Shown: positions 321 through 22,815 of the stretch, piece after piece
Position numbering within the stretch: the first letter of the stretch is position 1
Layout of the letters: each line of letters begins with the position of its first letter
NCBI GenBank assembly: GCA_032358255.1
Contig: JAULBX010029270.1
Coordinates: 1-22,815 of the forward strand
From: Heterotrichella gracilis
Taxonomy: Eukaryota; Sar; Xanthophyceae; Tribonematales; Xanthonemataceae
DNA: 22,815 bases
Direction of reading: 5' to 3'
Position numbers and translations under genes: made by a program
Notes under the pieces: generated by a model
What the model was told of the DNA's origin: nothing
The model's input: the letters and a program-made list of their open reading frames with translations, nothing else
The model's database searches: none

Positions 321-418
321 GTGTTCTTCTCCAGGGTTCCTGAGTACTACCCAATTCTGCTGCTGGGCTGAGGTAGTTGTTTGACTTGCCAGGCAAGTGC
401 GCAAGCTCGCCCATCTCC
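321..418 (-). repeat. Degraded copy (echo) of HCF173 exon 8 in the 3' flank
   Basis: Parent is 532-615 in the last exon. Both contain GGGCTGAGGTAGTTGTT on the plus strand and matching flanks (GTGTTYTTCT at one end, CATCTCC at the other), with substitutions and an insertion of about 14 bp. It is in the same orientation as the parent. The copied frame is disrupted, so this is a pseudo-exon fragment. Confidence 0.8.
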
Positions 419-527
419 AACTATCAAAGATAAATTCTGCCCTGATAAAATCCCTGCCACAGCCAAATTTGCGCGATGGTGGAACAAAGCCCCCGCTCTT
501 CCCTGCCTCTGTCCCTGCCTCCCCTGC

Positions 528-3500
528 TCACGTGTTTTTCTGCAGGGTTGCCAGTGCCGGGCTGAGGTAGTTGTTCGACTTGTCTGGCAGGTGCGCAATA
601 AGCTCGTACATCTCCAGCCCCGCCTCTGGCGTGTACTCGTAGCACACCTCAAAGGCCTTGTTGCGTGCAAGGGGGTCGTGCAGCGCCTTGAGCGCCACGT
701 CAGCAACGTCGGCGCACGAGATGCCCTGCGGAACGGGTATGAGGGTTTAGGGTTTTAGAGTCGGGGGTTTAAAGCTAGGGCTTAGGGCCATGCAGCGCCC
801 GGGTGAAAAATGAGTACCTCCCCCACCTGCCTCCATGCAAATCATGCATGACCCCAAACCTGTCCCTACACCCAGGCTTCCCCAGAACCGAATTCCACCC
901 AAGTTATTGATCTGATGTTGATTAATATACTCCACTACTAACCTGCGAGATCCTGTTCCCCTGGTCAAAGATGAGCGCCTTGTACCCCCCTGCCTCCTCA
1001 ACAAGGGGCCCAGGCCGCACAATGGTGTAGCCAAGCCCGCTGTTGCGCAGCGCAGTCTCGCCCCGCCGCTTGTAGCCCAGCACGCGTTCCCGGGTGGTTG
1101 CATCCTCACCCACGCGGGGGGCGCCTGCGGGGGGGGCGCGGGAGGGGGTTGTGTGATGGGAGGCTGGATGGTGTGCCATGGGGAATTTTCAGGCTGTGGG
1201 GTGGTACCGGTGCAGCACTCAGTGTTGCCCAGTTGCATGGGGAGGACATGCGCTTGGTTTGATCTGTGCATGACCAGCCACACAAAAATAATGACCAAAT
1301 GCCCATTAGCCCAGCACTCCCAATCCCACCCACCTGCGCAAGACACAAAATAAGTCGCTCTCGCCCAAACCCTAGACCCAAACCCTAAAACCTCACCCAC
1401 CTGCGCAGGACACAAACATGATGTGCCTCTCATCCAAACCCTAAACCCTAACCCTAAACCCTGGACCCACCTGCACAGGACACGAACACGATGTCGCTCT
1501 CGTCGCCCCCCGGCAGCGCCTTAATCCAGTCCACCTCCAGGTGGAACCTATTTTGGTTGTCGGCCTCGCCCCCCTTGACTGCGGCCCCGGGAACGATTGT
1601 GGCTATGGTCTTCATGCGGGGCTCAAAGCGCAGCGCCACGGATTTCACCTGGGAGGGGTCCAGCGAGGTCTCCTTCTGCACGCAACAAATTGCAGAACCA
1701 GTCACAAAATGTACAAAATATAGACGATTGAAAAACGTGATTTGATCCATGGAGGCCTCCTTCTGCAGCAGGGGGAAAAGTTGAAATAAAGATACACCAA
1801 ATCCATGCTTTCATGAAATGAAATATAAATGAACAGGTTACAAAAGACAGTAGACCAGACAGACTGCACATCAGTTGTTCCACTTCCAGGGGCTTTTACA
1901 GTAAGCAGAAACCCACATTATTTTGCAATACATAACTTGCCCGTCACCAGTGCAAAAGAGGAAAATCACAACCTCTGGCATGGACAAAGGCATTTGCGGC
2001 ATACCTGCAAGAACGTCATTGGCCGGAACGTGTTGAAGGGCAGGCGCACGGTGGAGTAGCCCAGCTTGGTGGGGAAGCGCGCAGCAAAGGTGCCGCCGCG
2101 CTCTGCAGGATGGGAGGGAAAAGGGTGGGGTGAGGACTGTTGAAGGGAGTGGGCGGGGTCCAGAGGGTGCGGCGCAAGGCAAGGGCGGCGCACGAGGTGT
2201 GTGGTGTGAGAGGTGTGGGTGGCGGGATTCAAGGCCATGCAAGCGAAACCCACTGTATGGATGGAGTGACATGCAGCCTTGTGCCCCAGCAAGATGGCAC
2301 AAGGCGCGCCTCCTGCCTCAGCAACTGTTTAGTGGGTACTGCCAATTGCATGGCCCCATCCAGCATTGCTTCACCCCCGTTTGCCCACCCCACCGCACCA
2401 ACACCCCTGGTCCAGCACAGGCGACATAGCACTCCATTTCATCTCCCTCCTCCCAGCCCGCGGCCCCTCCACCCCACACCCTCCCCGCCTGTTATGAGCA
2501 CCACTACCACCACCACCACTCCTCACCTGTCGTGAGCACCACCTGGTAGGGGTTGGTGTCCCCAAGCACCCGCAGCACCAGACCCTCACACCCCGCCAGG
2601 CTGTCGCCGTTGGGCAGCGCCAGGGGGCCGCCCACATCGGCCACGCCGCCGCGCGAGTACACAGTGCCTGGGGAGGGGGTGTTGGGGTTACTGTGGTGGG
2701 GACGGGGGGCATGGGGGAGGGTGCGGTGCCGGCACATGATGTGCAATGACACGTTGTTTTGCAGAATTTCCTGCAGGCGGCGTGCTGCCCAGCGACGCAC
2801 ATGCACATGCAGATGCACATGCTCTGCTCCAAGCATGCTGCCATACCCCGCCTGGCTCAAGTGATCAGCCACAGACTCCCCCATGCTATGCCCACAGGCT
2901 CCACTATGCACAGCGCACGCGCACAAACACCCGCAGATACAAACCACACAACCCACGCGCGCCCTCCAACACCAGGTTGCCCTGCTTTCAAAAGCCCGAT
3001 TGCGCCTAGACCTGACCCTACCTATCATGTGCTGCTGCCCGCACCTACCCACAACTACCCCCAGCTTCACCACCCGCCCATCCAGTACACCACCCACCCA
3101 TCCGCACATCCCACCCACCCCACGCCCCCACGCACCCTCAAACACCAGGTTGCCCTGCTCCGAGATGCTCGCCTGCGCCTTGTCCTGTCCCCGGTCAAAC
3201 ATGCGCCTCTGTGCGCTGCTGCCCTCAGCCACACCAAGCTTCACCACCCGCCAGTCGCGCGCGGGGCCGTTCTTGCCGAAATCGGCCACCTCCTTTTTCG
3301 ACCGGCTGGACAACGAGCCTTGCCGCCGGGCGCTGCGGTTCTGGTAATCCTGCAGGTGGAGGGTTTCTTTGAGGTTTAGGGTTTAGTGTAGGGGTTGGTG
3401 TCCAGTGGTGCACTTCAGGTCGTCCTGTTGAGTTGGGGTGTAGACTCCTTTTCCGGTGTAGGGTCATTTTAGGGTGCAGCGAGCGGGTGCGCACCATGAA

Positions 3501-4575
3501 GGCCTTGGTGATGTTGGTCACCCCACTCTCCTCAACGCGTGTCAGCTCAGCAGCCATGGCAGACTTTGCGCCCGCACACCACACCACCTGCACCACAAGC
3601 GGGGTGCACCGTTATATGTCTAGAGCGCGGCGGGTGGGGCACAAGGGGGGATGCATGACAGTAGGGTGGTTCAGCTGGGTATTGGCGCAATAGCCTTGCA
3701 AGTGAGTGTGTGCCTGTTTGGTCTCAACAACTGTGTCTTGTGCCTGAACACCCATGCACCACTATGCTGATGGTGGTGGGTGGTGGGTGGGATGCATACG
3801 CTGAGTACAGAACAAGATCTGCTGCAGACCCACAACAGCATAATGGCGATACGTGTAGGAAGTGACACACAGGAAACACTTGGGGCAGCCTGGGTATTGA
3901 TGCAAGACCCTTGGGTACGTGCCTGTTTGATCTCACACTGTACATTTCCCATTGCCCTGTACCACCATGCCCCATTGCATGTGGTAGGTGGCAGACCAGC
4001 CAAGAGTGTCCTACCTTGTCCACCCCCTCCACAGCCCTCTTGCACGACTCGTAGTCAGCCACGTCCCCTTCAATGATCTCAACCGCTGGAGGCACAGGCT
4101 CGCTCAGGTCCCGTTCCTTGTTCCTCACTAGGGCCTTGACACTGTACCCCCGTAGCAATAGCTTGCGGATCAGCACCCGCCCCACCCGCCCCGTGCCACC
4201 CACCACCAGAACGGTGGTAAATGCCGCCTGGGGAGCCTCGAACACCGTCACATCTCCCTGCACATCGTCTTCCCACACGAAGGAGCCTCCTCGGGTTGGT
4301 GAGCTCAGCTTTGTGAATTGGGACCACACGTCGTCGAAAGCTGCCCGTGATCGTCGCCCCAGTTCCACGGGGTTGATGTCTTCCAGGCTGAACGCTTGGG
4401 CCTCGAGGTCTTTCTTTGCTTGCTTCTTGGTGCGCCGGGGCCGAGGGGTGGGTGTTTCGCCGTCTTCTGAAGTTGCAAAGACAGCGAATCGGCTCCTGCT
4501 GCGCCCAGGTGTGGTTCTGCAGGGGCGTAGGAGCTGAGTGGTACTAAGACCCTGCCTTTGGCTCAAGTTCTGCAT
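528..4575 (-). CDS. HCF173: HCF173-like chloroplast atypical SDR/CIA30 protein (8 exons, 563 aa)
   Basis: Exons (minus strand): 4015-4575, 3495-3587, 3136-3349, 2527-2667, 2005-2102, 1471-1675, 943-1124, 528-725. All introns are GT-AG and phases join to 563 codons plus TGA. The first ~35 residues are Ser/Arg/Thr-rich with few acidic residues, as in a chloroplast transit peptide. A Rossmann nucleotide-binding motif GGTGRVG lies at residues 126-132, followed by VVWCAG at 188. Residues ~220-430 match the CIA30-type insert (RGG near 295, LRFEP and WIKALPGG further on). The SDR part then resumes with SGLGYTIVRPGPL (466-478) and FDQGNRISQGISCADVAD. No SDR YxxxK catalytic pair was seen, as in the family. 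Plant HCF173 is about 600 aa and is needed for psbA mRNA translation initiation in the chloroplast (family knowledge). The C-terminus LQKNT resembles the Arabidopsis end. The start is the first Met before the transit-like segment. It is divergent from the SelO gene. Three introns or flanks hold copies of its own exon edges. Confidence 0.9.
1327..1464 (-). repeat. Two echoes of the HCF173 exon 6 donor boundary separated by telomere-like filler
   Basis: Parent boundary is 1465-1503. Copies at 1394-1435 and 1327-1365 each keep the end of the exon (sense TTTGTGTC then TGCGCAG) and the donor GTGGGT. Parent, copy and copy are separated by degenerate CCCTAAA runs at 1435-1464 and 1366-1391. The layout is a tandem array whose unit is exon edge + donor + telomere-like filler. 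Both copies keep a usable GT donor. Confidence 0.85.
1754..1768 (-). repeat. Short echo of the HCF173 exon 6 acceptor
   Basis: A 15-bp piece, sense CTGCAGAAGGAG plus CC, resembles the true acceptor and first codons at 1664-1680. It lies in the preceding intron about 85 bp upstream of the real site. It is short enough to be chance, but it has the same orientation and context as the larger copies. Confidence 0.45.
2952..3079 (-). repeat. 128-bp echo of the HCF173 exon 3 3' end and donor
   Basis: Parent is 3125-3252. The two align over their whole length: plus-strand ACCAGGTTGCCCTGCT near one end and AGCTTCACCACCCGCC at the other, with many substitutions between. The copy lies in the intron right after exon 3 and carries ~117 bp of exon sense plus the donor neighbourhood. 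Its frame still shows RVVKLGV, as in the exon, but then diverges. Confidence 0.85.
3674..3940. repeat. Direct repeat pair inside HCF173 intron 1
   Basis: Copies at about 3674-3730 and 3889-3940 share GGGTATTG, GCAA, then GTGCCTGTTTG and TCTCA in the same order, separated by ~160 bp. This is an intronic duplication without exon sequence, so it differs from the boundary echoes. Confidence 0.55.
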
Positions 4576-5225
4576 GTTGAAAGAGCCTGTAGGCTGTGAG
4601 CAGGGACTGAAAAAGATATCTAGCAGCCTAGTAACAGCATTGAACTAGCTTTGGCAACGCAGCTTGGAATACACAGAAGGGGAACGCTGCCCGTCAATGC
4701 GCTGGCGTTGATGGCCTATTTAGCTGGAAAAAGTAGCTCTAACAAAAACGTCGAAGCATGCAATGCGTCCGCTAGTACTTGGGTTTGCCCAATTCGTGCA
4801 TGCATTGTTGCGTGGTTGGGAGCTCACTCGAAAGGTGAGCGTGGCGTTTTGAGAGTGCACTCGACTGTCATCGACACGCGGCAGCTAGCTGTAAGCCGTT
4901 GCAGTTCGTGCCTAAAAGCAGAGCTCTGAGACACAAACTTGAAGCAGAGCCAGCGCAAAACTAAGCTCGCCACTACCACGGCCCTTCGCAGTCCATCTCC
5001 TACAAACGGTGCTGCGCAGGTGAAACTGTTGAGAACAGCAGTTGAGTGCATGCAGTGGATTGGGCGTTCACCTTGCGAGTTGGATCGTTTATGCCATCCA
5101 CACACTCGAAGCAGTGCCGCTTTCTTTACAACTGAAGTCATAGATTCCAGTTGCAACAAGGCAGAAACCTATCAACCTCACCCGCTTGTATATGCGGTTA
5201 ACCACCCTGCCTGAAGGCGGTTCTG
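4576..5225. promoter_or_regulatory. Shared divergent promoter region of HCF173-like and SelO genes
   Basis: This 650-bp gap separates the start codons of the minus-strand HCF173-like gene and the plus-strand SelO gene. Both promoters and 5' UTRs must lie here unless an upstream non-coding exon exists. A TATATG at about 5189 is the only TATA-like element I noticed near the SelO start. No clear repeat or additional gene was seen. The bidirectional role is inferred from gene order. Confidence 0.5.
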
Positions 5226-10984
<5,759 letters not shown>

Positions 10985-10993
10985 GCCAAGAGT

Positions 10994-11228
10994 GTCTCAT
11001 GCGGCTCGATCAGGAGGGAGCTCATGCGGCCTAGCCAGTGCGGAATGGAAGCCTATTGAGGAGGCTACTGCGGCCTACCAGTGGACTAATGGGTCCTAAT
11101 CAGAGGGCTAATGCAGCTGATTCAGTTGACTAATGGGAGCCTATTCAGGAGGTTAATATGGCCTAGTCAGCGGGCTGATGCGGGCCTAATCAGTGGGCTT
11201 ATGCAGCCCAATCAGAGGGCTATGCGGA
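10994..11228 (+). repeat. Degenerate ~22-bp minisatellite starting ~10 bp after the SelO stop
   Basis: About nine to ten imperfect units of 21-23 bp with approximate consensus CCTAATCAGNGGGCTAATGC. Adjacent units differ at several positions, so the array is old or gene-converted. It would be transcribed as the start of the SelO 3' UTR. Related fragments continue weakly to ~11340. The spacing is unlike a CRISPR array. Confidence 0.85.
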
Positions 11229-11908
11229 TGGGCATATACTGCCTGCCGTTCCCATCCCATTCAGGAGTCTCCGGGTCAGAACTTCAAGGTCTGGGGTTGG
11301 CAGCCTTATAGGGCAGCCTAATTAGACAGCGGAATGGGGTGTTGTCAGGCAAGGAAGGCGGTGTCGTGAGCCGAGGTCAATTGCTGAACGACATGATGTT
11401 TGTTTCAGGTGTTAATCTGGCTGTACTGCTGAAACGCATGCAAAGTGTGTGTGTTTAGGGTGTGCATGGGCAGTTGCTATTTTTGCTGCAGAGGGGCGAT
11501 GATTGTGCAAGGGAGTGTGGGTGGGAGCTTCAATACCCTAGGGTTATCGTCTTGGTGCCTTTAGTCAGCAGGGTGGGGATCGCAGTGTATTTTTGCAACA
11601 AATAATGTTTTATGCTGGTTTTAACCGCATGGCCAACTGTGACATTCATAATCCTTTCATGGTATCTGTTTACCTGACTGTTAGTGACTCAAGAATGCTG
11701 CTGTCACCTTCGCGAGGGTCAAAACTGTGTGAACTGTACGGCAAATATTTTACGGCGGTAAGTTGTTACATCTGTTGCAAGAGGCCTCCACGCAGGCCCA
11801 AGAGTCTCATCCGATGAATTGTTCAACCCTACACAACTCCATAACCAGCTTGCACCGTTGCACCCTTTAGGTCCTTATCTCAAGAGAGCCTAATACACCT
11901 GTACAGGA

Positions 11909-11930
11909 TGTAAACCAATACATGTTTACA
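11909..11930. terminator. Possible bidirectional poly(A) signal (TGTAA on both strands)
   Basis: TGTAAAC at 11909-11915 and its reverse complement GTTTACA at 11924-11930 form an inverted repeat. This puts the chlorophycean poly(A) signal TGTAA on each strand, about 925 nt past the SelO stop and 1,015 nt past the hydrolase stop. Other TGTAA sites exist in the region (for example 12164-12168 on the plus strand), so this choice is tentative. Confidence 0.3.
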
Positions 11931-12834
11931 GGCTGTACTAAATGACAGAGCCTTTGTGAGAAAGACTCTGTACCATAAATCCCAGGGCGGAAAGGAAGGG
12001 AACTCGCGCAATGCGCAGCATGACATATGCTGTAGCATAAATTGCAGATGGCGGTGGGATGGGGGCATTTTGTTTCTTTTGATCTTCTCCTATTGCAAAA
12101 ACCAACCCTAAACTACAGGCGGTACGGGCCTCTAGCCTATGGTAACCAGTCTATAGACAACAATGTAATCGAAACCACGGCCATGCACGTCAACACAGAA
12201 CCTCCTTGGCCAGTATGTGCATCAACCCTCGTATTGTACAAAAAACCTACAACAGTTCAGCAAAGTCCTGCAATGGCAGTGCTGCTGGAAACCATATTGT
12301 ACAAAAAGAATTATAAGGACCCAAAGCCGTGCACGGCGCATTAAAACATCAGCCCTTGCCCCTTTATTGATGCGTTCAATGCATCGCATAATGTATTCAA
12401 CATCCTCAATCCAATACAGCTCACAATTCCAACACCCTAATGCCAAGTTTTTGCTGCTGCACTTGCCATACCTACCCCATCCGACCCGCCACACTGCACA
12501 CACTGCTCAAAGTGGTTTGCAACCGAGAGAGCTGCTTAAAATCACGATGCTAGCCTGATTTTGGCAGTTGCTGTGTGGACCAGGTGTCCTGCAAGAATGG
12601 GTGGCATACATTGGCAGTACGCTGCACGGCTAGTTTGCCACCATCTGCCACACTGGACATGACACACCTTGACCCTTCAACACGGGGTGAGGCACGTGCA
12701 CTAATGCTACCCTGGCTAGAAATGGGGCCAGAAAACACCTACTTATCTACTCTCACATGCTACCTTCCTACATCCACCCACCCTATGCCTGCCTATGTCG
12801 TGCCTGGCTACACCGCAGATCAGTGATCCCCACC

Positions 12835-12935
12835 CGATGGCATCCTTCTCCCCGCCGCCACAACAGCTCCTTCCGCCGCCACTCCAGCTCCCCACCCGGT
12901 GCCATCCTGTTCCCCGCCGCCACTCCAGCTCCCCA
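12835..12935. repeat. GC-rich ~50-bp imperfect duplication in the hydrolase 3' flank
   Basis: Two to three copies of a segment with CCCCGCCGCCAC, CAGCTCC and CCATCCT lie just beyond the hydrolase stop codon. The plus-strand frames over it are low-complexity and not considered coding. Confidence 0.65.
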
Positions 12936-12944
12936 CCCCCCCCT

Positions 12945-15900
12945 TCACGTCACGCACAGCCTGTGCCTGGCCAATGGCTCCCCGTCCATAAGCGCCCCCA
13001 GGGGCATGGCCATCTCGGTGAACCTGCACCACACACACGCAGAAAAGATAATAATGCAGTACTGATGGATAGCCCGCACCCATGGGCAATGCACAGGCGC
13101 GGTGTATCACAGCACCACCGCCACCACCTGTGGGTTGGTCATGACTCTCATGAGCACAATGCACACCCCTCTCCCCCTCCATGTGAATTCCTCTCCAGCG
13201 CCCCAAGCTACCGTGTAGGCTCCCCCCACACAAACCCTAGTTCATAAATCCCACGCCAACCCGTGCGCCTCGGCAACACATACCTAAACCCTAACACCCC
13301 AATGCCAACCCTACCATCCGCTCACACCTCCAGTGCCTCAACACAAGGCGCACACTCCATCCACTCCAAACCCCCAAATCCTACACCCCGTGCCAATCCC
13401 AAACCCTACACCCCACCTACCTCTCCAGCGCCTCCAGCGAGGGTGTCCGCTCCAGCCACGCCTGGTCCGCCTCCACATAGCCCGGCAGCTCCCTGATGCG
13501 CGCCTCGATCATGGCCTGGCGGTCAAACATGTTGATCACGCCCTCCGAGGTGCGCAGCGGGTAGAAGGACTCCACCAGGATGCGCCGCACGTGCTGGCCT
13601 GCAGGAGGGAAGGAATTGGGTATTTGTTGAGTTCAATACTAAAAGCAGACTGGCTGAGTCAAATTGTATTGCACACCGAAGATGCACCTACAGGTTGATT
13701 CCACATGAAGTGCCTTCCTCCATCGCTCCAACTGTACACTTTGGAGAGAAAGAACGTGCCCGGTAAAGGACACGGCTTTGGACCCTTGGTCCTCCCCAGT
13801 GACATAGCCCACATGTACCCATATGTACCCTTACACAGGACTTGGCATTGCCACGTCAGCACAGAAGAAAAACCACGCCCCGAGGAATACACAAATTGTG
13901 GTCAGCCTGGTATAGACACCGATTCAAAACCTTACGACTTTTTGACCCCCCACCCTGTGTGGCAATGCCACCATGGCAATGCGACTCAGCTCAGCACAAG
14001 GGGGAAAGCACACACCAAAAGTCTCCCCCAGCCGCTCCATGCGCGGCCATGAGGTCATCTCCACGCAGCGCAGGGGGCGCCCGCTGGCAAAGTCAAAGGA
14101 CTTAGCCATGTTCCACATGCAGTGCGCGTCATACACGTAGGAGCAGGTGATGCCCAGGCGGCCTGAAGGGAGTGAAGGGGCCGCATGGTGTGAGTCCATG
14201 CAAGCGAGTTGTATGCCTGACCTCCTTTCTACGTTACAATTTGATGTACATATTTTATTAAGTAGGAGCAGGTGATGCCAATCCGCCTGGAGGAAGTGAA
14301 GGGGCGTGCCTGGGAGGAGTCCTTTCCTTTGTCTATAGATGACATTGCATTATGCTTTGCAGGTGCCTGGCTTACATGCAGCCGAACTCCCAACCGCATA
14401 GCAACTACAAAGGACACTAAGATCACATCCTGGCACATGCCCTCCAGCTGCTTGCCCCCACCTGCCAGGTAGGCCGCCCCCGACCGCACCGACCACGCTG
14501 CTGAGCTGGCCAGGTGGGCGGGACCCACCGCCAGCTCCCACGTGCACTGGCTGCCCAGGCCTTCAAGCAGGCCAGTCACACCTGCAGCGGTGGTGGGCAG
14601 GGGTGTGAGGAGATGTGTGCGGATAGAATCATCGGCCAGCCATAAGTGCGTTGCGTGCTGGGGGTGTTTCTATGAGTATGCTGGTATGTTATGTCAGCCT
14701 GGATCGAATGATAATGTGTGGCATTGGCTTGTTTTTAGTTGCATGCAAGTCCCCTAGACAGACAACATCCCAGCTTACGCCCTACTCAGGGTTGAGCAGC
14801 CCTGCATGCACAAGGCACCCTTTCCCGTTCCTGCCAAGCAGGAGATTCGTCCATATGGATTTGAAAAATTGATGATGAATGACAATGTGCAACCAGACAA
14901 CAGCTTCCCAAGTTACAGTACCACTCACCCACTGTGCCTGCGGCTGCCTCCAGCTTGTAACCCCTGAGGCAGGTCCACAGCGAGGTGGACACCCCCGCCA
15001 CCATGCGCAGTGAGTTGATGGCCAGGCTGCCCGCCACCGCCCAGTTGCACAGCCGCACCCCCGTGCCCAGCACGCACTTGGCGATGTGGACCATGTCGGT
15101 CCTGTGGTGGGGAGGGGAAAAGAGGGGTGAATGTGGTTGGATGCGTCTTTCGGGGGGCACTTTAGCGCTTGCCAGGAGCTACAATGATAGTACTGGTAGA
15201 CAAGTGATTCATGCAATTCCTGCCCACACAGGTTACTACTCCCCATAAGACAACAGAGTGCTTCCAATGCCAACGGCTGGTGGCCAGCCCGCGCATAAAT
15301 TATGCAAGAAATTATCCCCCCCTTGGCCTGCTACCCGCCTCACGCCCCAACCCCCATACTTGCATACCAAGGTAGAATGAAAATAAAATTATATTGAAAA
15401 TAAATCCATTTCCGCCCCTTACTTGCACTCCATCTTTGTGTACATCCTGAACACCTTCCCCAGGTGCTCGCGGCACATGTTGATGGGGTTGGGGATCGAC
15501 AGGTAGTTGGTGACCTTGGCGCGCCAGTACTCGGGGGCGCCGGTGTCGGCTGCGCGCGCCTGATAGTGGCTGGTCAGTCCTGGGGATTCAAAGGCTGTGC
15601 AGTGCAGCACCCGGTCGTGCAGCAGCAGGGTGCAGGCGGTGGCCACAAAGGCGCCCAGCGAGTGGCCTGCGGTGAGGCTTAGGGTTAAGGGTGCAGGCGG
15701 AGAGGATTAGGGTTTAGGGCGTCAACATGTAGAGTGTAGGGTGCAGGCGGTGGCCACAAAGGCGCCCAGCGAGTGGCCTGCGGTGAGGCTTAGGGTTTAG
15801 GGTGCAGCCGGTGGCCAAACCTTTTTACTCGATTATTGACTGCATGGGGCAAGGTCAGTGAGGCATGTACCCAGCAGCGCAACCATAAAGCCCACGAGTT

Positions 15901-16830
15901 TGGATGCGTGCAGGATGCTCCGGGATGAACCACAGCAGGCGCAATCCACGCCTCCACGCCTCAAACCCGCCGCCCGCCAAGACCCCTGCCGCCCGCCAAG
16001 ACCCCTGCCGCCCGCCAAGACCCCTGCCGCCCGCCAAGACTCCGCACCCCCCCACCCCCCCGCACCCACCTGCGCAGTAGAAGCCCCACTGCACGCCTGG
16101 GTAGTGCGCCTCCAGCCTGCTCATGCTGCGCGTGATGAGCTTGCGCGCGCGCTGCACCATGGCGATCTCCCCCGGCCTGTCGCGCGCCAGCTGGTAGTCC
16201 GCGTGGATGTTGCGCGAGCGGTGGAAGCGGGTGCCGCGGAAGGTGAACACAGCCGCTGCCACCTGGATGGGGGCGAGGAGCAACCGCTGTGAGATTGATG
16301 GTAAACCCTAAACCCTAAACCTACACCCTGGCGGAAGTTGGGTGGAAGTTGCCCCTGAACGGGATCACGGCCCAGGTCCAAGCCCTGGTATATTTGGGCT
16401 AATGCTAGTAGTGTGAAGCCTGCCCTAGGCCCATTCACAGCAAACTTGGCGCCCACCAGACACGGTGGCAGTGACAGAGGCAGCATGTGACAACCTCATG
16501 TGTGCCAGCCTGTATAGCGCACAGCCTGGTCCAAGTTGCCCTTACCTGGGGTTTGGTAGGGTCTGGCTGTGTGACCTGGGAGATGAAGGTGACCATGCGC
16601 AGGGCCAGGCGCTTGTCGTCCGCATGCTCAAAGATCTTCAGCACAGGGGTGATCTTCATCAGCTTCTTGGCCACCCCTTGCAGCCTGGACTCCTTGTAGA
16701 AGCGGTTGGCATACAGGCAGCAGAGTGCTGTCTGTGCGTCTGCGGGCTTGGTAAGGCGGTACAGCTCCTCTGGCGAGTATGAGGTGCTGGGCTCGTCATC
16801 GGAATCATCAATTGTGCTGCTAGCGCCCAT
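12945..16830 (-). CDS. Class-3-lipase-like alpha/beta hydrolase (8 exons, 472 aa)
   Basis: Exons (minus strand): 16546-16830, 16070-16262, 15423-15666, 14929-15101, 14462-14581, 14016-14162, 13421-13598, 12945-13023. Phases join to 472 codons plus TGA. The N-terminal ~95 residues are polar, with a DDSDDE acidic run, and have no signal peptide. Residues 100-106 (VFTFRGT) match the oxyanion-hole strand of lipase class 3. GHSLGA at 160-165 is the nucleophile elbow, with Ser162 catalytic. TAFESPG at 183-189 is the next core strand. At the usual Asp position the sequence reads IPNPIN (217-222), with Asn rather than Asp, so the acid residue is unclear. The rest, including a hydrophobic stretch near 245-275 and the C-terminal MIEARIRELPGY, is unrecognised. 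The substrate is unknown; acyl ester hydrolysis is inferred from the fold. The last exon (26 codons) is the least secure because it rests on splice sites and frame only. It is convergent with SelO and downstream of the PPIL2-like gene on the same strand. Confidence 0.78.
14262..14305 (-). repeat. Echo of the hydrolase exon 6 acceptor
   Basis: Parent is 14138-14183. Plus strand shows TAGGAGCAGGTGATGCC in both, then the acceptor region and AGTGAAGGGGC. The copy keeps an AG acceptor (sense CTCCAG) but has one base fewer after it, so splicing there would shift the frame. Confidence 0.85.
15738..15819 (-). repeat. Near-identical echo of the hydrolase exon 3 acceptor carrying GHSLG
   Basis: 15738-15802 matches 15627-15691 with a single difference over 65 bp. 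The copy contains the acceptor (exon would start at 15777) and codons for GHSLGAFVATACTL. A third partial piece follows at 15800-15819. TTAGGG-type filler separates parent and copy. Translated from the copied acceptor, the frame meets TGA after about 17 codons. Confidence 0.95.
15969..16044. repeat. 19-bp minisatellite (4 units) in hydrolase intron 2
   Basis: Four tandem GCCGCCCGCCAAGACCCCT units; the first three are identical and the last ends in variants. It lies about 25 bp from the exon 2 donor, inside the intron between exons 2 and 3. Confidence 0.95.
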
Positions 16831-17173
16831 GGTCCTGCCGCTTTTGCCAGTGGTGGTGTGTGGGAGCCCCCCTCAGCCCTGCACGTGGGGAGCACCCAGT
16901 CAAGAACTAACTAGTTGCCTGGACATACATCCTTGCACACATAGTCCTACTGCAGCTTTAAGAGTCAGGGCTGGTGCGGTGCACCACTGTGGTTTCTGGG
17001 GTCTGCAGGGTGGTTGTTGATCGGCATGGGTCAAGGAGGGCAGCCCTCTAGGAGGTAGCGGTAGTTACAACGCTATTTGCAAGGTGCAGTGGTTACCTCT
17101 TGAGGTACAGGTGGCAGTAGTGACGTGTGTGTGACAGTACTTGGGTAACTCCTAGACCAGGTGATTATGCTCC

Positions 17174-17189
17174 GAAACAGTACTGTTTC
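17174..17189. promoter_or_regulatory. 16-bp perfect palindrome upstream of the hydrolase gene
   Basis: GAAACAGTACTGTTTC is its own reverse complement and lies ~345 bp upstream of the hydrolase start codon. It could be a dimeric factor site, but one such palindrome is near chance expectation in a window of this size. Confidence 0.2.
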
Positions 17190-18424
17190 AAAGGGACTAC
17201 CTAGCAATGCAAAGGGCCCTCTGTTTGTGTACAGCAGACACACGCAACCCAAGTTACCTGCCACAAGTTGCCCACAACCTACTGCACTACGCTCAACAGG
17301 TCTGAAGAGCATCCCAAAAGTAGTGACGAGGACTGAAATTCAGAGATCACGCTATTCGGCATCCACGCACCTTCGGCAGTTGCAGCCAACACTGTTCGCT
17401 GCTTCGAAACAGAGAGGAGGCACAGCAAGCCTGAACGCTGCTCCCTTGGCCCTCAGCTGCTTAGGGCCTAAATTGCAATGTGCCTTGTCAGCATTCCTGG
17501 TCACAAGGTGATCTCAATACCCGGCCTAGGCACCGGTCTGGTCTGGCACAGAGCTTGCTTTGCTTCGGTCTTGAGGAAGTGATTCAATATTCTGGTTCAC
17601 TTCCCTTCCCGTGGTGGGTGGGCACGAGCTTTATTCCTTCAACAAGTTCCCACGACGCAAACTGGTCAAGGGGAGGATCTTTATCATGCACATGTCCCCT
17701 GGTGAAATCAATTGCAATTATTTTGTTGATGCAACTTGCATTTGACCATGGTTATTTTCAGTGACAGTCAAGGGAAGGCGCGTGGGAAGTGCGTTGCTAA
17801 GTATACACCTCTCAGAGCCATGAAAGAAACATAAGACCCTCAGCTGTCTCCCCCACACATCAGCATTGTTTCAGAAACACAGACAGCAAGCAGTGGAACA
17901 CGGTGTGCGCAAGTGCAACGGCACAACGTGCTGCGGTGGTAGTTGTGAGTGAAATCCATTGAATGACGGGCAATTCAGTGCGAGCATACGAGGAGTGCAC
18001 CCTGCCTATGTTGGGGTGCAGGGATTCAGACTTGGGCAACCAATTGACGCGTACATGACATTCATGTCCTGGCTAACCTAATAGAAATAGCGCCAGCGGT
18101 CCATCAACGACAGTTATTCAACAGGTCGGAAAAATGCTACCAACACGCACACTCTAGCGTCCAAAATCAAACCCTCGATAGGGTCACTGTAGGAGGTTCA
18201 AGAGTTAAGTGGTTGTTCAAGTGCCGCACCACCAAACCGTCAAACCAAAACCAATTGTCCTCTCGGCCAATTGCAGCTCCACTCTTGTAGCCTGCCAATA
18301 CCCTAGGGTTTAGAGTAACCCTACACCCTTTGAAGCTCAACAAAGCATCTGACCAGATCCCTGCTCTCCTAGCCGGTCGCCTGCCTCGGATTGGTGTATT
18401 CCTAGCCCAACCCTAACAAGACCC

Positions 18425-18429
18425 TTACA
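18425..18429 (-). terminator. Candidate TGTAA poly(A) signal of the PPIL2-like gene
   Basis: TTACA on the plus strand gives TGTAA on the coding strand 51 nt after the stop codon. TGTAA is the usual chlorophycean signal. The implied 3' UTR is short, so a later site is possible. Confidence 0.35.
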
Positions 18430-18479
18430 TCTATACCCTCACGATTCATGCGGCATCTCGGCCTCTTGCAGCAACGTCA

Positions 18480-21400
18480 TCACCAGCCATCAAAGTTGCC
18501 GTAGGAGGGTGCAGCCTTGGCCTTCTTGGGGGCGGGGGCTGCACCGCCGCCAGTAGCCTGCGCCCCGCCCCCGGCCAGGGGCGCCGCCAAGTACTTGCCC
18601 ACCCCCTCCCGCACAACCTTGGTGTCGTGGTGGCCTGCGGTGGGGTGTGGGGTGGGTACGTGTCGGTGGTGTACGGTGGTCATGCAATGGTGGCTGCATG
18701 AGGGGCTGCATGAGGGGCTGCATGAGGCTGCTGTGCACCTATGGGTGGGCACATGGTCCCGTATGGCACACACAGGTGATGGGGGAGGGGAAGCAAGACC
18801 GCTTATCATTGTAATTACCTCCCACGGTGCTGGAACCCAGTGGCCAAAGCCGGACATTGGAAAGGGCCACACACACAGAGGGCCGCTTACTTGCAATATG
18901 GGGTTTAGGGTTTACAACAGTCGGGTAAGCGGCCCTGCCGGGTTGCTAAACCGGCGCCAAAGTCCTGGTCCGATTACCCTTCCTCACCCCTCTTTCCCCC
19001 CTCGCCATGTGAAAACAGGACCTAACCACCCTCCAGCGCACCACAATGGCAGCGTAAACTAGGCGGGGGAAGCAGGGCCGCTTACCTGCCGGATTGCTGA
19101 ACCAATGGCCAAAGCCTGACAAGAAAAAAGAAAGGAGGTCGGGGAACTGCAGGGTGCAGGGTTCAGGGTGTAGGGTTTACGACACCCACCTGCCGGGTTG
19201 CTGAACCAGTGGCCAAAGTCCTCGTCGGCGTACCCCTCCTCCTCCCTCATCCGTTTCTTGACATCCTCCTCCGCCTTTTGCTTTTTCTCCTCCACCAGCT
19301 CCTTGTAGGGGTTGACAAAGATGGTGGCACCCGTGATCTTCAGCTCCTGTAGGGGGTGGTCCTCGCGGTCGGTGGGCACCTTCTCCATGGCAGACAGCAC
19401 CTCCAACCCTGCGCAAGGGTTTTGTGGTGAGTGGTCAGACCCTATTCGAGGGTTTGGCTGGTGAGCCAATAGTACTCACTTGATTGGTGAGTACTACAGA
19501 CATGTTGTTATGCACATGCACAGTCCAGCGATGCTGAGCAGTCAACCGTGCACACGCGGTGCCAAGAAGTCCTATACCAGTTGCTGATCTAAGGTCCTGC
19601 TGGACCCAATCAGCCAAGCACTAGCCTGCCATGAACCAGCGCCGCAAATGCCCGCGCAGGTGCAACGTACCTCGCCCAAGGGTAGTCACCCCATCATACA
19701 CCACATGACTGACTGCTAATCTGGCTGTATTGCTGGAATGCATGTAACTAAGTAACTGACCAACTAACGCCACATGACATTTGACCACTTTTCCCTCCCC
19801 TCTCCCTGCCCTCTCACCTCCCACCACCTTGCCAAAGACCGAGTGCTTGTAGTCCAAATGGTGCGCAGACTTGTACAGAATGAAGAACTGGCTGCCATTG
19901 GTATTTGCCCCATTATTAGCCATGCTCAGCACCCCCCTGCCAGAGTGCAGCAGCCGGGAATCCAGCTCATCCTTGAAGGTCTTCCCATAGATGGATTCCC
20001 CCCCTGTGCCTGTGCCCGTGGGGTCCCCCCCTTGCACCATGAAGTTCTTGATGCTTCGGTGGAAGGGGGTGTCGTCGTAGTAGCCAGACTCGGCCAGCGC
20101 CATGAAGTTCTCACATGTCCTGCAGGGGGGTCAAGACAACAGGATTTACAGGGGATGAACCATACAGTGCGCGTCGTCATGGTCGCCAGATGCCTGCCAG
20201 CGCAATGAACACCACACAAGGGTCGTCATGCAAGGGGTTGCAGGGATCAAACTAACAATTGAAGTAAACACCAATATATATACATCGCAGCAGATCACAG
20301 TACAATTCCAAGTCACAATCGCCCCCCTACCCACCCAAAATGCCACCCTCAACCCCCCCACCCACCTTGGCGCCAGGTCGCAGTGCAGCTCCAGGTTGAG
20401 GTCCCCCATGTTTGTGTGCAGGCGCATGTAGCCCTTCTTGGTGGGGTGCAGGTCCACGCGCACCTGCTGGCGCTCGTTGCGGGTGGTGACGGGCATGGCG
20501 GTGGAGGTGAACGCGCGCGAGCCTGGGGGGGTGGGGGAGGTAGGGGTGAGGTGGGGTGAGGTGAGGAAGGGTGGTGAGGAGGTGGAAGTGGTGGGGTGTT
20601 TGGAGGGAGGGAGGTGGTGGCCGGCATGGCGGTGGATGAGGAGGTGGGGTTTGGTTCACGAGTTGATGATGAGGTGGTAGATGTGACAGGGGTGCCAAAC
20701 CCTCCAAAAACTCTGCAACGTTGCACCGCAAAGCGCTGTCCCCAGCCCTCTAGGGGTGTGTGCATTCTCCCTGAACCCCCAAACCCTACCCTCCAAATAC
20801 CTACAAGCCCTAAACCCTTTCCTTCTCACCTGCCCCCGTGGTGTGCGCGCTCTCCCTGAACTCAACCAAATAAGGCTGAGGCACCACCCGCCCACTGACA
20901 GAAGGCCCCTCGTCTGCCGCCACAGGCTGCTGTGCCTGCCTCCCCCCCTTTTGCTTGCCCTTCTTCTTCCCCCCTTCCTCCTCTGGCTCGTCGGTGTTCC
21001 AGGTGGCGGCACCAGGCTTGAACGATACCGTCTGTGTCACCATGGGAGGAGGGTAGGTTTTAAGGTTTAGGGTTTATGGCTTGAAGATACGAGCTGCGGA
21101 GAGGGAAACAGGTCAGGTGTGTAAAGACTATGTTCCAGGTGGCGGCACCAGGCTTGAACGATACGGTCTGTGTAAGGGGGGGAACACGTCAGCCTATGTC
21201 TACTGCATGCAAGGCATATATGCAGCCAGCGCATGCTCCCCATTCCTGTACCCACATGATGGCACATCCAACAAACCCATTCGCCTCCAGGCGAGATGCC
21301 GTGTAAAATCTCCTCCACGCGATGTACTGCCCACAATTCCCCAAAACACTCCAAATCACCGCCACGCCCCTGCTACAGACCCCCCATATATGACACCCAC

Positions 21401-22740: not shown

Positions 22741-22815
<75 letters not shown>
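22741..22815. repeat. (TG)n microsatellite to the window edge
   Basis: An uninterrupted run of at least 37 TG units reaches the end of the window, inside the PPIL2 intron before the first visible exon. Its true length is unknown. Confidence 0.98.

Follow-up and report, generated by a model that had tools for sequence, protein, structure and literature searches.

Genes and exon-edge echoes

The window analysed here, 22,815 nucleotides in length, is the entire contig C675 of the 68.5-Mb, 903-contig assembly of Heterotrichella gracilis. Exon borders were set by eye and then checked by splicing, which yielded four gene models with 36 exons and 32 introns. All four spliced models read from end to end in a single frame without internal stops:

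Minus strand: HCF173 gene, 8 exons; exon 1 (4015-4575) begins with ATG
Plus strand: SelO gene, 12 exons; read by eye, spliced frame open
Minus strand: hydrolase gene, 8 exons; read by eye, spliced frame open
Minus strand: PPIL2-like cyclophilin gene, 8 exons; cut by the contig end

HCF173 is a plastid-related name. Pfam matches in the window genes were to SelO, to the cyclophilin domain and to NAD-binding and CIA30 domains; the hydrolase (12950-16830) had no Pfam match at 0.001 and carries a GHSLG motif. Residues 100-581 of SelO align with solved SelO chains, crossing most SelO exon joins. The SelO C-terminus (10862-10984) reads CLSCSS; some eukaryotic SelO proteins have selenocysteine where the window SelO has cysteine. 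The contig ends in 37 TG units (22741-22815), which probably made the assembly break off inside the PPIL2 gene. Dispersed repeats are also present, as positions 1-76 and 19704-19768 have copies (88% and 91%) on contig C771, in L012.

A first-pass annotation had described partial copies of exon edges ("echoes") in the neighbouring intron or flank at 13 or more boundaries, of which it listed 13. We aligned each of the 32 introns to 150 bases from the start or the end of every exon, with a cut at a score of at least 28, and took PPIL2 exons D, E and G of that annotation as exons 4, 5 and 7 of the gene model. The echo loci and the telomeric runs beside them are as follows (percentages are identities):

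361-419 vs 555-616, minus strand: HCF173 exon 8 (last) and its 3'-flank echo; 84% over 62 columns; no telomeric spacer
287-304: telomeric run just outside the HCF173 exon 8 echo
1327-1349, 1394/1395-1434 and 1465-1504 (span 1327-1504), minus strand: HCF173 exon 6 donor edge, three copies; 85-96%; own-pair score 38
1380-1389 and 1436-1462: telomeric runs between the HCF173 exon 6 copies, TTTAGGG-type on the coding strand; spacer scores 18 and 24
3099-3252 vs 2928-3078, minus strand: HCF173 exon 3 donor edge and echo; 72% over 154 columns; own-pair score 76; no telomeric spacer
7684-7719 vs 7608-7643, plus strand: SelO exon 6 acceptor edge and echo; 89%; own-pair score 44; degenerate CCCTAAA-type spacer, score 15
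8318-8386 vs 8074-8142, plus strand: SelO exon 7 acceptor edge and echo; 87%; own-pair score 77; no telomeric spacer
8851-8899 vs 8956-9004, plus strand: SelO exon 8 donor edge and echo; 94%; own-pair score 51; spacer with degenerate units in both directions, scores C 14 and G 8
9225-9313 vs 9082-9169, plus strand: SelO exon 9 acceptor edge and echo; 78%; own-pair score 52
9172-9187, plus strand: CCCTAAA run directly after the SelO exon 9 echo; spacer score 16
10571-10882, plus strand: SelO exon 12 acceptor edge, array of copies (families D6 and D12); 90-93%; own-pair score 32
10611-10637, 10704-10716 and 10787-10822, plus strand: CCCTAAA runs between the SelO exon 12 copies; spacer scores 27 and 28
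Near 13190-13229 and 13325-13364 (entry 13283-13459), minus strand: hydrolase exon 7 donor edge, weak echoes (family D13); 63-78%; own-pair score 27
13283-13294: telomeric run at the hydrolase exon 7 donor edge
14137-14181 vs 14262-14305, minus strand: hydrolase exon 6 acceptor edge and echo; 87%; own-pair score 36; no telomeric spacer
15627-15678 vs 15738-15789 (region 15627-15803), minus strand: hydrolase exon 3 acceptor edge and echo; 100% over 52; own-pair score 80
15707-15719 and 15790-15803: runs at the hydrolase exon 3 echo, CCCTAAA-type on the coding strand; spacer score 13
19188-19218 vs 19084-19114, minus strand: PPIL2 exon 7 donor edge and echo; 94%; own-pair score 48; degenerate spacer, CCCTAAA-type on the coding strand beside a donor, score 17
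20995-21037 vs 21131-21173, minus strand: PPIL2 exon 4 acceptor edge and echo; 98%; own-pair score 69
21064-21076: run at the PPIL2 exon 4 echo, CCCTAAA-type on the coding strand; spacer score 17

Echoes were recovered at all 13 listed boundaries. Twelve of them scored at least 28 in their own intron, and the thirteenth, at HCF173 exon 8, is located in the 3' flank and not in an intron. Two further echoes passed the cut, on the acceptor side of PPIL2 exon 6 (31) and on the donor side of PPIL2 exon 4 (29), and two fell narrowly under it, at the donors of hydrolase exon 7 (27) and hydrolase exon 6 (25). When the exon-intron pairing was shuffled, only 3 of 2016 non-neighbour pairs reached the cut, compared with 14 of 64 own pairs. 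The copies were described as keeping the orientation of their parent, and consistently no own antisense pair scored 28 or more. They are found on both donor and acceptor sides of introns, and they contain intron bases, which bears out their reading as DNA-level duplications; retrocopies were rejected on this account. The annotation put their identity between about 98% and barely recognisable; the measured pairs run from about 70 to 100%. It also took the process as a continuing one, for which this range of identities is the one possible sign.

Local repeats were then surveyed in the window and in 190 kb of four other contigs at a score of at least 40. Direct repeats gave 65 rows at offsets of 20-500, none at 500-2000 and 23 at 2-16 kb, and inverted pairs numbered 0 under 500, 9 in 500-8000 and 1 in 8-16 kb, so that adjacent same-strand duplications of overhang size are present with no inverted counterpart. 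The annotation placed every copy beside its own parent; the local direct repeats have offsets below 500 bp, and some repeats are found away from exon edges. Such repeats include a degenerate array at 11020-11227 (repeat 11044-11222) in the SelO 3' flank, with units of 22-45 bases and no telomeric spacer, and a repeat at 12827-12932. Hydrolase intron 2 (15969-16040) holds 3.8 identical copies of a 19-base unit without telomeric units, which represents tandem growth of a second kind and of very recent date. A splice boundary was spanned by at least 6 bases on each side in 9 of the 17 window repeat rows, against 3.3 rows under conditioned random placement (P = 0.002) and 4.0 under free placement (P = 0.0045), an excess that may be slightly inflated because exon copies diverge more slowly.

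Telomeric repeats at the joins

Many of the duplicate pairs are built as [X][telomere repeat][X], with X of about 15-90 bp; these telomeric joins were absent from the earlier annotation. The 17-mer GGGTTTAGGGTTTAGGG occurs 2437 times (1231 + 1206) in the 68.5 Mb, overlapping matches inside one run being scored separately, compared with a single occurrence (0 + 1) of the reversed pattern. The true telomere of this genome is TTTAGGG, as seen from the TTTAGGG repeats that terminate contig C173, and contig C626 encodes a telomerase RNA-binding domain (PF12009, over cut-off). Run lengths were determined in the 190 kb, where 75 runs measured 10-25 nt, with a median of 13 and a maximum of 25 nt; all seven phases occur in the register of run starts and ends. 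The observations comprise short telomeric tracts at sites with unrelated flanks and the same unit at a chromosome end, as in telomerase-type interstitial insertions at breaks.

The association between duplications and telomeric units was quantified in three ways. A telomeric stretch (score at least 11) was present in 25 of 60 spacers against 2.9 expected, in a count of the repeat pairs with a spacer that left out 5 overlapping rows and in which array rows are not independent. In the window and the 190 kb together, a flanking direct repeat scoring at least 30 was found at 31% of 80 telomeric clusters and at 4.5% of 800 control positions. For the third count, loci were chosen by the 17-mer alone, because a bias towards the window was to be avoided: the first 100 matches lay in 79 places on contigs C2-C20, of which 2 with short flanks were left out. 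A flanking direct repeat of at least 30 was detected at 28 of these 77 loci, compared with 15 of 6007 flank pairs formed across loci and 52 of 1500 positions free of repeats. The antisense comparison gave 0, and at the other 49 loci no duplication was detected at this cut. Among the 28 duplicated loci, the run had both copies within 3 bp in 6 cases, within 10 bp in 12 and within 30 bp in 18, the rest being looser. A donor-like site was seen by eye inside the copy at loci L085, L090, L034 and L061, and arrays of several [copy + repeat] units occur at L085, L090 and SelO exon 12.

Ordinary tandem duplication by slippage or unequal exchange might have made the echoes, the telomeric units arriving separately and secondarily. 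We regard this as unlikely. No telomeric spacer separates 35 of the 60 local repeat pairs, and several arrays resemble minisatellites, both of which speak for tandem duplication; against it, telomeric spacers reach about 8 times their expected frequency, and both copies lie no more than 10 bp from the run at 12 of 28 duplicated loci. The pairs lacking a telomeric spacer may be older, or may have been made without telomerase.

The sequence X is unlike between loci, so it is the telomere unit, not X, that the loci have in common. An introner or a telomere-targeting retroelement that inserts with long target duplications would account for direct repeats on the flanks of the inserted tract, and is nevertheless highly improbable as the source, since no common body was found: flanks match across loci only at the rate of the 6007 cross-locus pairs given above, and a masked all-against-all comparison of the retrieved loci gave 15 pairs of at least 60 bp, none of them between two of the 79 telomeric loci. 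Introners were rejected on these grounds. That the pattern is an artefact of assembly is hardly credible. Locus L090 does adjoin an assembly gap, but most copies have diverged, on which account we rejected the artefact, and the same arrangement recurs at unrelated loci on many contigs, both in the 190 kb of four other contigs and among the loci on contigs C2-C20.

Position and direction of the repeats

Coding sequence was predicted with a 3-periodic model, which recovers 85% of window coding bases at 88% precision, the window being part of its training set. None of the 61 telomeric clusters in the 190 kb had its centre in predicted coding sequence; such sequence accounts for 14% of those 190 kb. 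With the 79 17-mer loci oriented as TTTAGGG, a predicted exon lay within 120 nt on the left only at 28, on the right only at 5, on both sides at 1 and on neither at 45 (left vs right, P = 7e-5). The 61 clusters, similarly oriented and counted with 1 mixed-direction cluster left out, had an exon on the left only in 20 cases, on the right only in 4 and on neither side in 37 (P = 0.0015). Against the true exons of the window, all 10 CCCTAAA-type runs lay closer to the acceptor (in one case by no more than 9 nt), and 4 of the 5 TTTAGGG-type runs lay closer to the donor. Runs of at least 10 nt are carried by 11 of the 32 window introns, and these are introns of all ranks. Hydrolase intron 1 and PPIL2 exon 7 are the exceptions in direction, and both directions are present at SelO exon 8. 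At either end of an intron, the repeats tend to be directed away from the exon and into the intron.

A cruder measure was applied to the whole genome, with expectations extrapolated from the 190 kb. The donor word AGGTRAG was followed within 30 nt by a G-type unit 469 times and by a C-type unit 282 times (about 98 expected each), and TGCAGG was preceded within 30 nt by a C-type unit 1107 times and by a G-type unit 673 times (about 580 expected each). On this measure, units near splice words show an evident bias in direction across the genome, though one of moderate size.

Selection could set the position and direction of the tracts, the underlying insertion being random. CCCTAAA before acceptors would serve as branch-point and pyrimidine signals, and TTTAGGG after donors as G-triplet enhancers. 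The 60-nt edges of the 32 window introns average 0.36 G and 0.18 C at starts and 0.38 C and 0.14 G at ends, and such G-rich starts and C-rich ends show the same bias without clean repeats; they also exceed what the pyrimidine tract alone would suggest. Because introns start G-rich and end C-rich, selection on splicing could give the same direction bias. The duplications and the exact telomere unit are not accounted for by such selection, which is very unlikely as the explanation, although it could act together with break repair.

We also considered whether telomeric DNA fragments were captured at staggered breaks, with telomerase not acting there. Register bases are weak, being found at 8 of 17 usable junctions among those listed, with left-junction array cases left out. 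Register between donor and repeat was enriched (138 vs 17.2 per other gap). A control word that is not a donor was more enriched still (86 vs 4.8), so that controls removed this signal. Both results would fit capture. The very short runs speak against it, as does their biased direction relative to the exon, which free fragments leave unexplained, and we judge capture distinctly unlikely.

Facing telomeric runs of opposite direction showed no preferred order in 305 kb (8 vs 7). No clean empty site was found in the tandem paralogue pair on contig C771, where the telomeric stretch sits in a non-aligning intron. This paralogous region (L011:7089-9810 and L012:7787 to L013:820) has aligned blocks that are about 78-81% alike, and its introns could act as an internal clock for intron growth. 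Predicted coding sequence flanked the repeat within 120 nt on both sides at 1 of 79 telomeric loci, without a duplication, the coding prediction being approximate. These observations lend no support to the gain of introns, as distinct from their growth.

Break repair as a probable source of intron growth, and known systems

We consider it probable, with some reserve, that the echoes are scars of DNA-break repair, in which telomere units are added at staggered breaks close to intron ends, fill-in and joining follow, and splicing then hides the scar. Tandem duplication had been put forward in the first-pass annotation as the process at work. That reading stands as regards the local, same-strand duplication of exon edges, but it does not capture the telomeric repeat at the junction or its biased direction, both of which favour repair of breaks by telomere-type synthesis over simple tandem duplication. 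The arrangement [X][telomere repeat][X], with an unrelated X at each locus, suggests that X was duplicated and the telomere units were added in one event.

On the simplest route, repair would begin near an intron end with a staggered double-strand break or a pair of closely spaced nicks. A 3' end would then receive a few TTTAGGG units, of the kind seen at the joins, with telomerase as the most likely enzyme, after which the overhangs would be filled in, perhaps by CST/Pol alpha-primase, and the ends joined to give the arrangement above. Where X lies across a splice boundary, as in the window, the open frames of the gene models suggest that the outer copy is the one spliced and that everything else is removed, so that the scar would survive and the intron would grow. 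The observed arrays of [X + repeat] units could be built by further events of this kind or by unequal exchange. The duplication is symmetric, so the direction of the repeat alone tells which end was extended. Repeats pointing from exon into intron at both ends are expected if the extended 3' end is the intronic one, on the exon-side fragment, and the direction bias suggests that this was the case.

A wider reading is that telomerase and its fill-in partners are a main engine of intron growth in this lineage, breaks being healed outward from exons as if these were small chromosome ends, which would leave directed telomeric tags and duplicated exon edges thousands of times across the genome. We offer it tentatively, as possible and a little short of probable. 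If true, gene structure would be tied to telomerase acting elsewhere than at chromosome ends. Little is known of how introns arise and enlarge, and the study of intron-gain mechanisms has been described as not yet begun in earnest (PMC3488318). The telomere unit would serve as a tag on these scars: its direction suggests which break end was extended and its decay may give the age of the scar, and tagged scars would make events of intron growth countable genome-wide and testable in strains.

Each part of the proposed repair has a known counterpart. Interstitial telomeric insertions arise at double-strand breaks in mammals, with target duplication in 6 of 130 cases in rodents and 4 of 25 in primates (PMC2246262). 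Those insertions resemble the present ones in placing a short telomeric tract at unrelated sites, some with target duplication. In contrast to them, duplications here are commoner (28/77), larger and often across exon edges, the tracts show a bias towards intron ends, in direction as well as in place, and register bases are weaker (8 of 17 listed junctions vs 67-80% in mammals). Fill-in of 3' overhangs by CST/Pol alpha-primase followed by end joining produces small tandem duplications (PMC8355091), which are likewise local, direct and of overhang size, and the same complex fills in telomere ends. Telomeric filler is present at many junctions here and is unmentioned in the accessible text of that paper; the involvement of these enzymes in our system would be by analogy.

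The telo boxes of Arabidopsis and rice were explained by non-processive telomerase acting at free 3' ends, with invasion and error-prone repair as later steps (PMC3022908), and share the AAACCCTA motif with the present repeats. Arabidopsis telo boxes are concentrated in 5' UTRs, with introns at the genome average (150.7 vs 155.2 per Mb), and are single units; unlike here, duplicated exon edges find no mention in the accessible text of that study. Intron borders have also been described as carrying direct repeats close to splice sites, and break repair was given as their source (PMC11782384). Those measure 4-30 bp (mean 11.4) and pair the two ends of an intron, whereas in the present case a single exon edge is duplicated inside its own intron. 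Introners also change introns on a genome scale (PMC9860276), but the loci described here have no element body in common. Among the titles and abstract openings listed from open-licence literature, we found no account of directed telomeric tags between duplicated exon edges at intron ends. Telomeric insertion at breaks and fill-in duplication are each known separately, and within that literature their combination appears to be new.
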